Shown: one piece after another, positions 35,799 to 39,360 of the stretch
How the letters are laid out: every line of letters begins with the position of its first letter
How positions within the stretch are numbered: the first letter of the stretch is position 1
Assembly: GCF_032464895.1 (NCBI RefSeq)
Contig: NZ_JAWDIC010000001.1
Coordinates: 1,054,001 to 1,118,000, forward strand
Direction of reading: 5' to 3'
Origin: Phycicoccus sp. M110.8
GTDB taxonomy: Bacteria; Actinomycetota; Actinomycetes; Actinomycetales; Dermatophilaceae
Length of the DNA: 64,000 nucleotides
The notes under the pieces: model-generated
Told to the model about the DNA's origin: nothing
Database searches by the model: none
Seen by the model: the letters and a program-made list of their open reading frames with translations, nothing else
Translations under genes and position numbers: made by a program

Positions 35799-35927
35799 CG
35801 CCGACGGGCGCGCCCGGCCCACCGCACCCCGGCATCCGGCCCCGGTGGACCGACTCGGAGCCTTCCCGGGGGCGAAACCGCAGGTCAGCGGGGGTGCGAA
35901 TTCCGCGCAGGGGCGTAGGGTCGCGAC

Positions 35928-37007
35928 GTGGCCACGGCCGAGGCGGCACCACCGCCGCAGGACGAGGGAGGCGCGGGCGACGTCGCGGGCCTCATCCCGA
36001 TGGTGCGCCGAATCGTCCGGGCCAGGGTCGGCGCCCACCCGCAGGCGGACGACCTCGTCCAGGAGGTCCTCGTCCGCGTGCTGGCCGCCGAGGACCGGAT
36101 CGAGCCGGGGATGCTCGAGCCCTACGCCATCGCCACCGCACGCAACGTCGTCGCGTCGATGTGGCGCCAGGACGACCGGGCCGCCCGCAACCGGCACCGC
36201 GTGCACGACCCCACCGAGCCCGACGCCCCCGACGAGCTGGTCGTCGCCTCCGAGGAGCAGGAGGCCGTCAACGTCGCGCTGGAGCGGCTCACCGCGCGCG
36301 AGCGCCAGGTGCTGCTCGCCCACGAGGTCTCCGGCCAGGACACGCACAGCCTGGCCGAGGAGTCCGGCTCGACCGCGGGCGCGGTGGCCGCGCAGCTCAA
36401 GCGGACCAGGGCGCGGCTGCGGGTCGAGTACCTCCTGGCGCTCGAGCACACCGAGCCGCCGACCGAGCAGTGCCGCCCCGTCCTGCTCTCGCTGTCGGGG
36501 GCGGACCGTCGCCGGCAGCGCGAGGTCGACGCGGCACGGCACCTGCTCGAGTGCGAGCTGTGCGCCCGGCTCAGCCAGCCCCTGCTCGGGCGGGGACCGG
36601 CCCGCGACGACGAGGTGCGCGTGCCCATCGGGGCCGACCCCGACGTCGTCGCGGCACGCCAGGCGGCCCGTGAGCTCGCCGCACGGGCCGGCTTCACCGG
36701 GTCCGACCTCACCGTCCTGGCGACGGCGGTCTCGGAGATCGCCCGCAACATCGTCCGGTTCACCGACGGCGGCGAGATCGTCGTCGAGCTGCTCGACTCG
36801 CCCCGGCGCGGCATCCGGGTCGTGGCGCGCGACACCGGTCCGGGCATCAGCGACGTCGAGCAGGCCCTGGCCGACGGCTACAGCACCTACGACGGCCTCG
36901 GCCTGGGGCTGCCGGGGGCCCGCAGGCTGATGGACGAGTTCAGCATCGCCAGCGAGCCGGGGCGTGGCACGACCGTGAGCATGACCAAGTGGTTCGAGAG
37001 AGGATGA
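35928..37007 (+). CDS. Fusion: ECF-type sigma factor + HxxxCxxC zinc motif + RsbT-like switch kinase
   Basis: 359 aa, one uninterrupted frame. Residues about 22-92 look like sigma-70 region 2 (QADDLVQEVLVRVL, YAIATARNVVASMWR); 108-170 like region 4 (LTARERQVLLAHEVSG, SLAEESGSTAGAVAAQLKRTR). H205, C209 and C212 form an HxxxCxxC motif (HLLECELC) typical of zinc-binding anti-sigma proteins. Residues 228-356 are an RsbT kinase: LATAVSEIARNIVRF (N box), DTGPGISDVEQAL, YDGLGLGLPGARRLMDEF and GTTVSMTKW. RsbT normally phosphorylates RsbR/RsbS in a stressosome and, when freed, activates RsbU. GTG at 35928 lies 6 nt after TAGGGT, so it may be leaderless. Its stop overlaps the rsbR-like gene region. Confidence 0.9.
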   Translation: MATAEAAPPPQDEGGAGDVAGLIPMVRRIVRARVGAHPQADDLVQEVLVRVLAAEDRIEPGMLEPYAIATARNVVASMWRQDDRAARNRHRVHDPTEPDAPDELVVASEEQEAVNVALERLTARERQVLLAHEVSGQDTHSLAEESGSTAGAVAAQLKRTRARLRVEYLLALEHTEPPTEQCRPVLLSLSGADRRRQREVDAARHLLECELCARLSQPLLGRGPARDDEVRVPIGADPDVVAARQAARELAARAGFTGSDLTVLATAVSEIARNIVRFTDGGEIVVELLDSPRRGIRVVARDTGPGISDVEQALADGYSTYDGLGLGLPGARRLMDEFSIASEPGRGTTVSMTKWFERG

Positions 37008-37009
37008 CG

Positions 37010-37927
37010 ATGGACACCGAGAGGGACACCGGGCGCGACCGGCGCGACGAGGACCGGCAGGTCGGCGACGGCGAGCACGGGGACGGCACGCAGCTGCTGC
37101 CCCAGCTCGTGGCGCACCTGCGCGAGCACCGGGCGAAGCTGCGCGACGAGTGGGCGTCCCGGATCCGCGAGGCCCACCTCCTCGAGGCGATGACCCCGCA
37201 GGAGATGGCGGCCGAGACCACGTCGGTCTACGACAACTACGTCGAGGTGCTCGAGACGGGAAGCGTGGAGGCCCTGCAGCACTACGCGCGTGACCTGTCC
37301 GAGCGGATCATCCCCCGGGGCGTGGAGACGCACGAGGTCGTCGGAATCGTGCTGCTCCTGCGCGACGTGCTGGCCCGGTCGCTGTTCGAGAAGTACCAGC
37401 GCGACTTCGGGCTCCTGAACTCGGTCCTCGACGCGTACGAGCCGGCCGCGAACCGCATCGCCAACACGGTGGCGGTGAGCTTCGTGGAGGAGCGTGAGCG
37501 CGTCATCCGGCAGCAGCAGGACGCGATCCGCGAGCTGTCGACCCCGGTGCTCCCGGTCCGCGAGCGCCTGCTGATCCTGCCCATCATCGGGGTCCTGGAC
37601 CAGCAGCGGGCCCGCCAGCTCACCGAGCAGCTGCTCGCCGGCATACGCACGCACCGCGCCAAGGTCGTCGTCATCGACATCACCGGCGCCCCGGACGTCG
37701 ACCACACCGTGGCGAACCACCTCGTGCAGACGGTCGACGCGTCACGGCTCATGGGCGCGAGCGTCATCATCACGGGACTGTCGCCGACGATCGCGCAGAC
37801 GCTCGTGACGCTCGGCGTGGACCTCAGCAAGATGAACACCATCGGTGACCTGCAAGGAGGGCTCGAGGAGGCAGAGCGGCTGCTCGGGTACTCCGTGACG
37901 CGGAAGGACGTGACAACGGGCTCGTGA
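37010..37927 (+). CDS. RsbR-type stressosome scaffold with C-terminal STAS domain
   Basis: 305 aa. The N-terminal about 170 residues are helical and of the RsbRD_N type (QLVAHLREHRAKLRDEWASR), the likely signal-sensing part. The C-terminal STAS domain includes VVVIDITGAPDVDHTVANHL and GLSPTIAQTLVTLGVDLSKM; the second Thr lies where B. subtilis RsbRA has T205, and a Thr lies next to the T171 position. I prefer ATG 37010, 6 nt after GAGAGG; ATG 37004 overlaps the preceding stop (ATGA). It overlaps rsbS by 4 bp. Confidence 0.9.
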   Translation: MDTERDTGRDRRDEDRQVGDGEHGDGTQLLPQLVAHLREHRAKLRDEWASRIREAHLLEAMTPQEMAAETTSVYDNYVEVLETGSVEALQHYARDLSERIIPRGVETHEVVGIVLLLRDVLARSLFEKYQRDFGLLNSVLDAYEPAANRIANTVAVSFVEERERVIRQQQDAIRELSTPVLPVRERLLILPIIGVLDQQRARQLTEQLLAGIRTHRAKVVVIDITGAPDVDHTVANHLVQTVDASRLMGASVIITGLSPTIAQTLVTLGVDLSKMNTIGDLQGGLEEAERLLGYSVTRKDVTTGS

Positions 37928-38328
37928 GCTCCGGACCGGCACTCGTCTCGATCCTGCGACAGGGACACACCCTGGTCGCGTCGATCCACACTGCCCTGGA
38001 CGACACCGAGATGCTCCGGTTCCGGTCCGACCTCATCGCCGCGATCGGGGAGCACCGGTCCCGCGGCGTCATCATCGACGTGGCCGCCCTGGACGTGCTC
38101 GACAGCTTCGGCGCCCGGACCCTGCGCACCATCGCGGAGATGGCGCGCCTGCGAGGCGCGGTCACCGTCATCGTCGGGATCCAGCCGGACGTGGCGTTCG
38201 CCATGGTCCAGCTCGGCATGGGCACGGGGAACGTCCCGACGGCCCTCGACCTCGAGGAGGGCCTGGCCTACCTGGCCGAGGCCACCGGGCGTCCCGTGCC
38301 CACCGCCGTGCGCGACGACGGGGCGTGA
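37924..38328 (+). CDS. RsbS-type STAS-domain protein
   Basis: 134 aa single STAS domain, the small stressosome scaffold partner. VIIDVAALDVLDSFGARTL carries the conserved Asp-Ser-Phe with the Ser equivalent to B. subtilis RsbS S59, the RsbT phosphorylation target. GTG at 37924 overlaps the RsbR stop (GTGA), so equimolar coupled synthesis is likely. Together with the RsbT-like domain two genes upstream it completes an RsbR-S-T set. Confidence 0.92.
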   Translation: MSSGPALVSILRQGHTLVASIHTALDDTEMLRFRSDLIAAIGEHRSRGVIIDVAALDVLDSFGARTLRTIAEMARLRGAVTVIVGIQPDVAFAMVQLGMGTGNVPTALDLEEGLAYLAEATGRPVPTAVRDDGA

Positions 38329-38332
38329 GCGC

Positions 38333-38677
38333 GTGTATGCCGAGTCGCTGGCCCGCGACTACCGCGCCGCGTTCCTGCGGTACCTGCCGCGCCGCAGCGA
38401 GGCGGCGCTCGCAGCCGGGTACGAGCTCGGGCACCGGGCGGTCGAGGACGGGGTCAGCGTGCTCGACCTGGCCCACGTCCACCACGACGTGCTCACCGAG
38501 GTGCTCGAGCAGTCCCCCGGCGGGGAGGTCCGCAGCATCGCCACGGCCGCGTCGGAGTTCCTCCTCGAGGTGCTGGCCACGGTGGACCTGGTGCAGCGGG
38601 CCCGCACGGGCGGCGCACCTCCCGGCCAGCCTGCCGAGCACGCCGACGGCCCGGACGCCGATCCCCCCGGCGCATGA
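38333..38677 (+). CDS. Stand-alone RsbU N-terminal-like domain (no phosphatase)
   Basis: 114 aa, GTG 4 bp after the rsbS stop. YRAAFLRYLPRRSEAALAAGYELGHRAVEDG and VLDLAHVHHDVLTEVL resemble the N-terminal helical domain of RsbU, which binds RsbT. The PP2C phosphatase part of RsbU is missing and is not found elsewhere in the window. The C-terminal 25 residues are Pro/Gly-rich. It could be the docking partner for the RsbT part of the sigma fusion. Confidence 0.7.
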   Translation: MYAESLARDYRAAFLRYLPRRSEAALAAGYELGHRAVEDGVSVLDLAHVHHDVLTEVLEQSPGGEVRSIATAASEFLLEVLATVDLVQRARTGGAPPGQPAEHADGPDADPPGA

Positions 38678-38826
38678 CGCGGGCCGGGCGCGTCGATTTC
38701 CGAGGCGCCCACTGGTGCGGAGCCTGACCCGCGCCGGGACCTCCGCGTCACGTCACGGCTGCCGCGGACTCATCACCCTCGTACGGCCCACACGATGGGC
38801 TTCCCAGCACGAGGAGTGAGACCCGC

Positions 38827-39360
38827 ATGATGCTACGAACCAAGCTCGTCGGAACCAGCACCGCCGTCGTCCTCGCCGGGGCGTTGGGCCTCGTCCCCGC
38901 CGCCACCGCGAACGCCGCCCCCGCACCGCAGGCCGCCTCCGCAGCCGTCCCGGCGGCGACCACGCTCCCGGTGACAGGCACCCTCGCCGACGGCACGGCC
39001 TTCACCGGCCAGCTGAGCAACCTGTCGACCAGCGTCGTCAACGGCGTCCTCATGATGAGCGGCACCATCACGGGCACCGGCATCCCGGCAGGGGGCACCA
39101 CCTTCACCGCACCGGTGCAGAACCTGGCGACCACGAACGGGTGCTCGATCCTGACGCTCGACCTCGGGGCCATCCACCTCGACCTGCTCGGCCTGGTCGT
39201 CGACCTCGCGCCGGTGAACCTCGACGTCACCGCGGTCCCGGGTGCCGGCAACCTCCTGGGCAACCTGCTGTGCGCCGTGGCGGGGCTGCTGGACAACAAC
39301 GGCCCCCTCACCGGGATCTCCGCCCTGCTGAACCGCCTCCTCACGGGCCTGGGCCTCTGA
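38827..39360 (+). CDS. Small secreted protein of unknown function
   Basis: 177 aa. The signal peptide (LVGTSTAVVLAGALGLVPAATANA) is followed by an Ala-rich linker and a beta-rich domain with LPVTGTLADGTAFTGQLSNL and a hydrophobic C-terminal part (LDLLGLVVDLAPVNLDV, NLLGNLLCAVAGLL). Two cysteines could form a disulphide. ATG at 38827, GAGGAGTGAG upstream. It lies 150 bp after the stressosome operon and could be part of its output, which is not shown. Confidence 0.8.
   Translation: MMLRTKLVGTSTAVVLAGALGLVPAATANAAPAPQAASAAVPAATTLPVTGTLADGTAFTGQLSNLSTSVVNGVLMMSGTITGTGIPAGGTTFTAPVQNLATTNGCSILTLDLGAIHLDLLGLVVDLAPVNLDVTAVPGAGNLLGNLLCAVAGLLDNNGPLTGISALLNRLLTGLGL

Follow-up and report, generated by a model that had tools for sequence, protein, structure and literature searches.

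A predicted stressosome operon in Phycicoccus sp. M110.8 with a sigma factor joined to the switch kinase RsbT

To our knowledge, known stressosomes reach a sigma factor solely via RsbU, RsbV and RsbW. We analysed a stretch of 64,000 nucleotides from Phycicoccus sp. M110.8 (contig NZ_JAWDIC010000001.1, positions 1,054,001 to 1,118,000 of the forward strand; hereafter the window, from whose first letter coordinates are counted), in which one gene joins an extracytoplasmic function (ECF) sigma factor to an RsbT kinase at the head of an operon encoding RsbR and RsbS. In B. subtilis, RsbT binds the N-terminal dimer and linker of RsbU, and R19, R23 and N24 of RsbT and E24 and Y28 of RsbU are named as contact residues (PMC12143880). 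Phosphorylation of RsbR at T205 restrains signalling and T171 primes it, T205 being of a feedback type with no part in assembly (PMC3944199, PMC7522486).

Stressosomes coupled to an output other than sigma-B are known, namely GGDEF in Moorella and histidine kinases or two-component proteins in Proteobacteria (PMC12143880, PMC9237108), and the present locus resembles them in this respect; however, RsbT is separate there and other proteins, some of them bearing RsbU_N, form the output, whereas here the output sits on RsbT. For globin-type stressosomes the Vibrio paper distinguishes eleven types of downstream architecture, and in the excerpts of it the outputs named are RsbU_N-bearing or two-component proteins, with no sigma–RsbT fusion (PMC9237108). 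No such fusion was described among the matches listed by a full-text literature search, and a term search of two reviews of ECF mechanisms (PMC8999054, PMC8103513) found no mention of a stressosome or of RsbT, consistent with the sequence-only reading of this DNA, which had known of no system of this design. Also close are the ECF52 sigma factors (e.g. SCO4117, PMC5826349), in which sigma factor, zinc-type domain and C-terminal input likewise share one actinobacterial chain. Their input, however, is a membrane and carbohydrate-binding tail rather than a stressosome kinase, and their zinc domain is pfam13490, whereas the corresponding domain here is not recognised by Pfam.

The fusion gene (35928..37007, + strand) is a single frame of 359 codons with a GTG start. 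Its sigma part has the ECF layout of regions 2 and 4 only: region 2 at residues 23–84 (35994..36179, + strand; Pfam Sigma70_r2, E 6.4e-11) and region 4 at residues 113–164 (36264..36419, + strand; Sigma70_r4_2, E 2.1e-6), with a TIGR02937 match at E 8.4e-20 and folds that agree. The C-terminal part matched HATPase_c_2 at residues 240–354 (E 6.5e-14), and Pfam, residue alignment and fold comparison together placed an RsbT kinase domain at residues 229–357 (36612..36998, + strand). All three Pfam matches exceeded the respective cut-offs, bearing out the sequence-only reading of this frame. Between the two parts lies a CHCC motif (36471..36563, + strand). The HxxxCxxC residues H205, C209 and C212 noted earlier are completed by C182 in the fourth ligand position upstream, giving the spacing C-x22-H-x3-C-x2-C, and all four residues were kept in 33/33 aligned fusions. 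Zinc anti-sigma domains (zf-HC2 or ZAS) are defined by HxxxCxxC plus an upstream fourth ligand, a combination found in every one of these 33 fusions. From its sequence, the domain has the appearance of an anti-sigma domain and may bind zinc.

The kinase was identified as RsbT by residue conservation and by phylogeny. One fusion with broken frames (L055) was left out of the CHCC consensus, the kinase residue counts and the trees. In 32 fusion rows E270, N274, D302, G304, G306, G323, G325, G327 and G330 were kept without exception and the N, G1 and G2 boxes were intact. The domain was 48–54% identical to the free RsbT of eight sister rsbRST operons, upholding the RsbT assignment first made from the letters. 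R244 and R248, at what we take to be the places of the RsbU-binding residues R19 and R23 of RsbT (located via the B. subtilis sequences), were also kept in 32/32 rows. In a tree the RsbT parts of 36 fusions lay on one side of a branch from 30 free RsbT proteins (support 93/90; 92% of bootstrap trees). At the sensitivity of the search made, the rest of the same genome gave no free RsbT, and a search of solved-structure sequences gave no RsbT chain for comparison.

The genes behind the fusion were those of a stressosome. The gene rsbR (37004..37927, + strand) can start at an ATG that overlaps the fusion's stop codon as ATGA, and rsbS (37924..38328, + strand) overlaps rsbR as GTGA. RsbR consists of an N-terminal domain and a STAS domain and aligned over its full length with RsbR of Listeria, whose structure is known (E 1.3e-35); RsbS is a single STAS domain that aligned with Listeria RsbS (E 4.8e-24). 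Six STAS matches were found in the genome, these two included. The phosphorylation sites were assigned by the Listeria alignments, with a numbering (T171, T205, S59) that we presume to be the customary one. The T171-type priming Thr of RsbR (codon 37541–37543, + strand) and the S59-type Ser of RsbS (S61, codon 38104–38106, + strand) were each present in 32/32 fusion rows. The earlier reading of these genes as a stressosome operon with overlapping RsbR and RsbS thus stands, although it was incomplete, having overlooked a fourth gene (38333..38677, + strand; Pfam PF08673, E 1.5e-14), which encodes a stand-alone RsbU_N domain without phosphatase. The E24-type Glu of RsbU was present in 31/31 RsbU_N rows. 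A full RsbU downstream of the fusion was rejected, as the RsbU_N frames end 85–129 amino acids past the match start in 25/25 named loci.

Comparison with conventional operons showed what the fusion operons have kept and lost. Like the sigma-B stressosome of B. subtilis and Listeria, the present operon has full-length RsbR and RsbS, priming Thr, release Ser, an intact RsbT and RsbU_N; unlike it, RsbT shares a chain with an ECF sigma factor instead of standing free, the operon is without RsbU phosphatase, RsbX and a separate sigma-B cascade, and the T205-type residue is lost. Also close were actinobacterial rsbR-rsbS-rsbT-rsbX-rsbU operons. Eight of 24 inspected loci that matched through RsbT alone carried RsbR 78–82% and RsbS 55–59% identical to the window's proteins, and a mycobacterial operon set resembles these sister operons (PMC8115616). 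Unlike the fusion operons, the two of the eight that were inspected in full (L259 and L261; L numbers are our locus handles and G numbers our genome handles) encode a free RsbT of 136 amino acids, an RsbX-like phosphatase of 212 and 218 amino acids and an RsbU of 739 and 741 amino acids, for which Pfam confirmed RsbU_N, PAS, SpoIIE and ATPase domains in L259. No RsbX-like match was obtained in 34 fusion loci and the window; the RsbX search of fusion loci gave a single PP2C-type match (L043, 9597–10226). The T205-type residue was Thr or Ser in 28/29 free-RsbT rows (25/26 without duplicate loci) vs 0/32 fusion rows, which had Glu in 24, Gln in four and His, Ala, Val or Gly in one each; the window has His (codon 37703–37705, + strand). 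The sequence-only reading had the fusion right, but did not include the missing RsbX, the altered T205-type residue or the promoter-like elements described below.

We propose, with a probability of about 0.6, that this stressosome has as its output a sigma factor borne by its own switch kinase, held by the shell and freed upon RsbS phosphorylation with no phosphatase, anti-anti-sigma factor or separate anti-sigma factor involved, with feedback rewired (RsbX missing, Glu at the T205 site) and with RsbU_N now a partner of the sigma factor. In unstressed cells the RsbT domain would be docked on the RsbR–RsbS shell, keeping the ECF sigma domain off RNA polymerase. Once RsbR senses a signal, the kinase would phosphorylate S61 of RsbS, with the priming Thr of RsbR contributing; the kinase would then let go of the shell and depart together with the sigma factor. 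Holding and release of the sigma factor by the shell had been suggested earlier, and we infer the same as the best account; a single-step release is probably an oversimplification, because the CHCC domain lies between sigma factor and kinase and a conserved RsbU_N gene follows, both suggesting a further gate. The stand-alone RsbU_N would receive the free fusion via the RsbT face vacated by the shell, and RsbU_N and the CHCC domain, as a built-in anti-sigma clamp, would set whether the sigma factor is open. Lacking an effector to drive, a bare RsbU_N could act only on its partner, here the sigma factor, and our guess is that it holds the released, active form. The active sigma factor would then read promoters of the CGTCAY-N18-TCTTCA type before small secreted-protein genes adjoining the operon, as well as a related element that stands ahead of the operon itself in three Geodermatophilus. 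The joining of kinase and sigma factor suggests that in some soil actinobacteria stress could act on genes directly, without a multi-protein relay.

If so, the last part released is a transcription factor, and the path from stressosome to gene is the shortest that we know of. An old question, whether release of RsbT from the shell carries the signal by itself, becomes testable, as transcription is a direct readout of release when the sigma factor sits on RsbT, and operons that lack both RsbX and the T205-type site provide a natural test of the workings of feedback.

The same fusion was found on 27 named contigs (L030–L056) among the 80 loci retained out of the genome collection, in Geodermatophilaceae, Nocardioidaceae, Propionibacteriaceae, Intrasporangiaceae and Euzebyales, answering the earlier call for further cases beside RsbR and RsbS. 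All four genes were present in 25/27 loci (rsbR next in 26/27, rsbS in 26/27 and rsbU_N in 25/27), the downstream genes of L050 and L046 being missing owing to contig ends. A frameshift or sequencing artefact, raised earlier as a possible refutation, was rejected, since the fusion is unbroken in independent genomes; in L055, one of the 27, the fusion itself is split into three frames. Within the genus 6/11 genomes carried the full fusion, which was absent from the other 47 of 58 genomes searched. A decayed RsbT remnant without sigma factor, rsbR or rsbS in a further genome of the genus (L011 in G003, 1504–1869) indicates that the system was lost in some species. In a class sample 75/394 genomes matched at E 1e-20, comprising three fusions, three sigma-CHCC proteins without RsbT and 69 that matched through RsbT alone, and matches to RsbR and RsbS adjoined RsbT in all 24 inspected of these 69. 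A phylum sample queried with the sigma part gave 11/396, namely three fusions, seven sigma-CHCC proteins with a hydrophobic tail and one plain sigma factor; one of its genomes (G626) is apparently that of L052.

Around the operons lie promoter-like elements that the sigma factor might recognise, in two patterns: P2, CGTCAY-N16-18-STCWTCA (strict form CGTCAY-N18-TCTTCA), and P1, CGTCATGS-N12/13-SCGTCY. In the window, pattern search gave a relaxed P2 match (38746..38775, + strand) 51 nt before the next gene, and a P1 element of the CGTCATG-N-GCGTCC type (38653..38679, − strand) pointing back into rsbU_N. That next gene (38827..39360, + strand) encodes a small protein of secreted appearance by eye, of family c6, and is a candidate sigma target. 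P2 had 27 matches in 21/27 named loci vs 0.15 on average over 20 shuffles, a count that keeps four matches inside rsbR coding sequence (L041, L048, L049, L054); P1 had 24 matches in 20/27 loci vs 0.35 in shuffles, and lay mostly 55–130 nt from P2 in opposite orientation. The strict P2 occurred 23 times in 21/27 named loci and was absent from 142 kb of sister and tail-type loci. As P2 matches of L255 and L256 also fell within rsbR coding sequence, the strict pattern alone is quoted for further loci: three matches in seven loci vs a shuffle mean of 0.01, one of the seven (L253, G008) being already known as L007 and so not fully held out. P2 preceded a small secreted-looking gene in 12/21 loci (L030, L031, L034, L036, L039, L042, L045, L047, L048, L051, L054 and L056), usually 42–71 nt ahead of its start. 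In L040, L042 and L045 (Geodermatophilus) P1 lay 43–55 nt before the fusion start, which suggests autoregulation there.

Matches to c6 or a second family, c3, were found in 15/27 named fusion loci. The c6 family, small, Ala-rich and secreted-looking (also in L048, L051, L054 and L036), goes together with the fusion operon within the genus, occurring in 6/6 genomes with the fusion (weakly in G008) vs 1/5 without it (G004); no P2 was found at c6 in G004 and G014, which carry c6 without the fusion. The c3 family, also small and secreted-looking (DGLVNVNVGDVTI...ICGVKVGPVAVLG), lies beside the operon in other families (L030, L034, L040, L042, L045, L047, L052, L053 and L056). The attempt to derive a regulon from the patterns genome-wide failed, as they are unspecific and mark none; the relaxed pattern had 44 matches in the window's own genome vs 17 for a reversed control.

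Several observations weigh against the proposal that the stressosome's output is the sigma factor on RsbT. No member of the 18 searched had a Pfam family match in the CHCC domain and a CHCC profile had no useful match among PDB sequences; neither zf-HC2 nor another ZAS fold was among the fold-comparison matches for the CHCC part, a part that this comparison barely probed. The structure model of the fusion had a pTM of 0.46, and domain packing is not readable from it. The RsbU contact is not kept at the place of RsbT N24, which is Glu or Asp in 32/32 fusion rows, and the place of RsbU Y28 was Tyr in 0/31 RsbU_N rows. The element (CGTCAT...GTCTTCA) was spotted by eye before c3 and c6 genes in named loci that were later counted, no secreted-looking gene was seen behind P2 in the other 9/21 P2 loci, P1 and P2 occurred in 30/39 and 39/39 genomes regardless of the fusion, and the window's P1 antisense into rsbU_N has no explanation in the proposal.

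The CHCC domain might instead be the actual switch, sensing redox state or a metal as RsrA does, with RsbT and the shell merely tuning it or the shell only positioning the protein. Pairwise dN/dS values were about 0.12–0.41 for the sigma, CHCC and RsbT parts, so that all three are under purifying selection by this measure, and the CHCC part had the lowest value in all three comparisons, which together with its invariant motif favours such a role. However, the kinase residues and the phosphorylation sites of RsbR and RsbS are just as invariant and the operon remains together, and we consider this explanation unlikely. An improbable one is that RsbU_N is a negative partner silencing the released fusion, so that the sigma factor is active only when shell-bound or when RsbU_N is scarce. 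RsbU_N, conserved without any effector domain, may serve as a sink, and the window's antisense P1 could, speculatively, lower its level; but the active form in B. subtilis is free RsbT (PMC7522486). That the sigma part is a sigma mimic as in PhyR, titrating another anti-sigma factor, is suggested by a weak match to PhyR_sigma2 that falls short of the cut-off (E 1.8e-4), but is quite improbable given that canonical models match both region 2 and region 4, that these are under purifying selection and that promoter-like elements co-occur. The ATPase part might also be an anti-sigma factor of the RsbW/SpoIIAB type, directed at the sigma domain of its own chain; this reading is disfavoured by the identity to free RsbT, the tree that places the domain in one clade beside free RsbT and the neighbouring RsbR and RsbS, and is scarcely credible.

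The relatives of the fusion also bear on its origin. In 10/10 sigma-CHCC relatives without RsbT (L112, L113, L118 and L265–L271) a hydrophobic stretch occupies the place of RsbT, with a best 19-residue hydropathy mean of 1.68–2.35 vs 1.05–1.25 for three fusions (1.05 for the tail of the window's fusion), and is probably transmembrane judging from hydropathy. The tail-type layout, which resembles that of ECF52 (PMC5826349), is that of a sigma factor sharing a single chain with its membrane anti-sigma factor. Since these relatives carry the tail where RsbT sits, RsbT appears to have replaced a sensor tail, and looks to have been grafted onto the sigma-CHCC cassette as a new input, the C-terminal input being swapped from membrane tail to stressosome kinase. 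A sigma-CHCC tree showed two label changes, with only one in 9% of bootstrap trees, and a single origin of the sigma-CHCC fusions is possible. In the same ten relatives the chain ends in a C-terminal domain with a DEGFW motif, and a relative of PRC-barrel type, by eye, adjoins L112, L113 and L118.

A possible −10 element of a leaderless promoter, TAGGGT (35916..35921, + strand), was seen on inspection before the GTG of the fusion, called by what we take to be the promoter consensus, and TANNNT stood near the same place in most upstream regions of fusion loci by eye. The antisense position of P1 at the end of rsbU_N recurs in L048, L051, L054 and L056, where, as in the window, the gene for the secreted-looking protein follows the operon; P1 might there drive an antisense RNA through the sigma factor. 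An acidobacterial locus (L057, 3895–5222) has an RsbT 57% identical to that of the fusion, and behind it an RsbU_N that continues into a PAS-like stretch in place of a phosphatase. In L033 (8017–9258) and L035 (Modestobacter), P1 stands 87–90 nt ahead of a gene for a GAF-EAL protein, a possible c-di-GMP branch.
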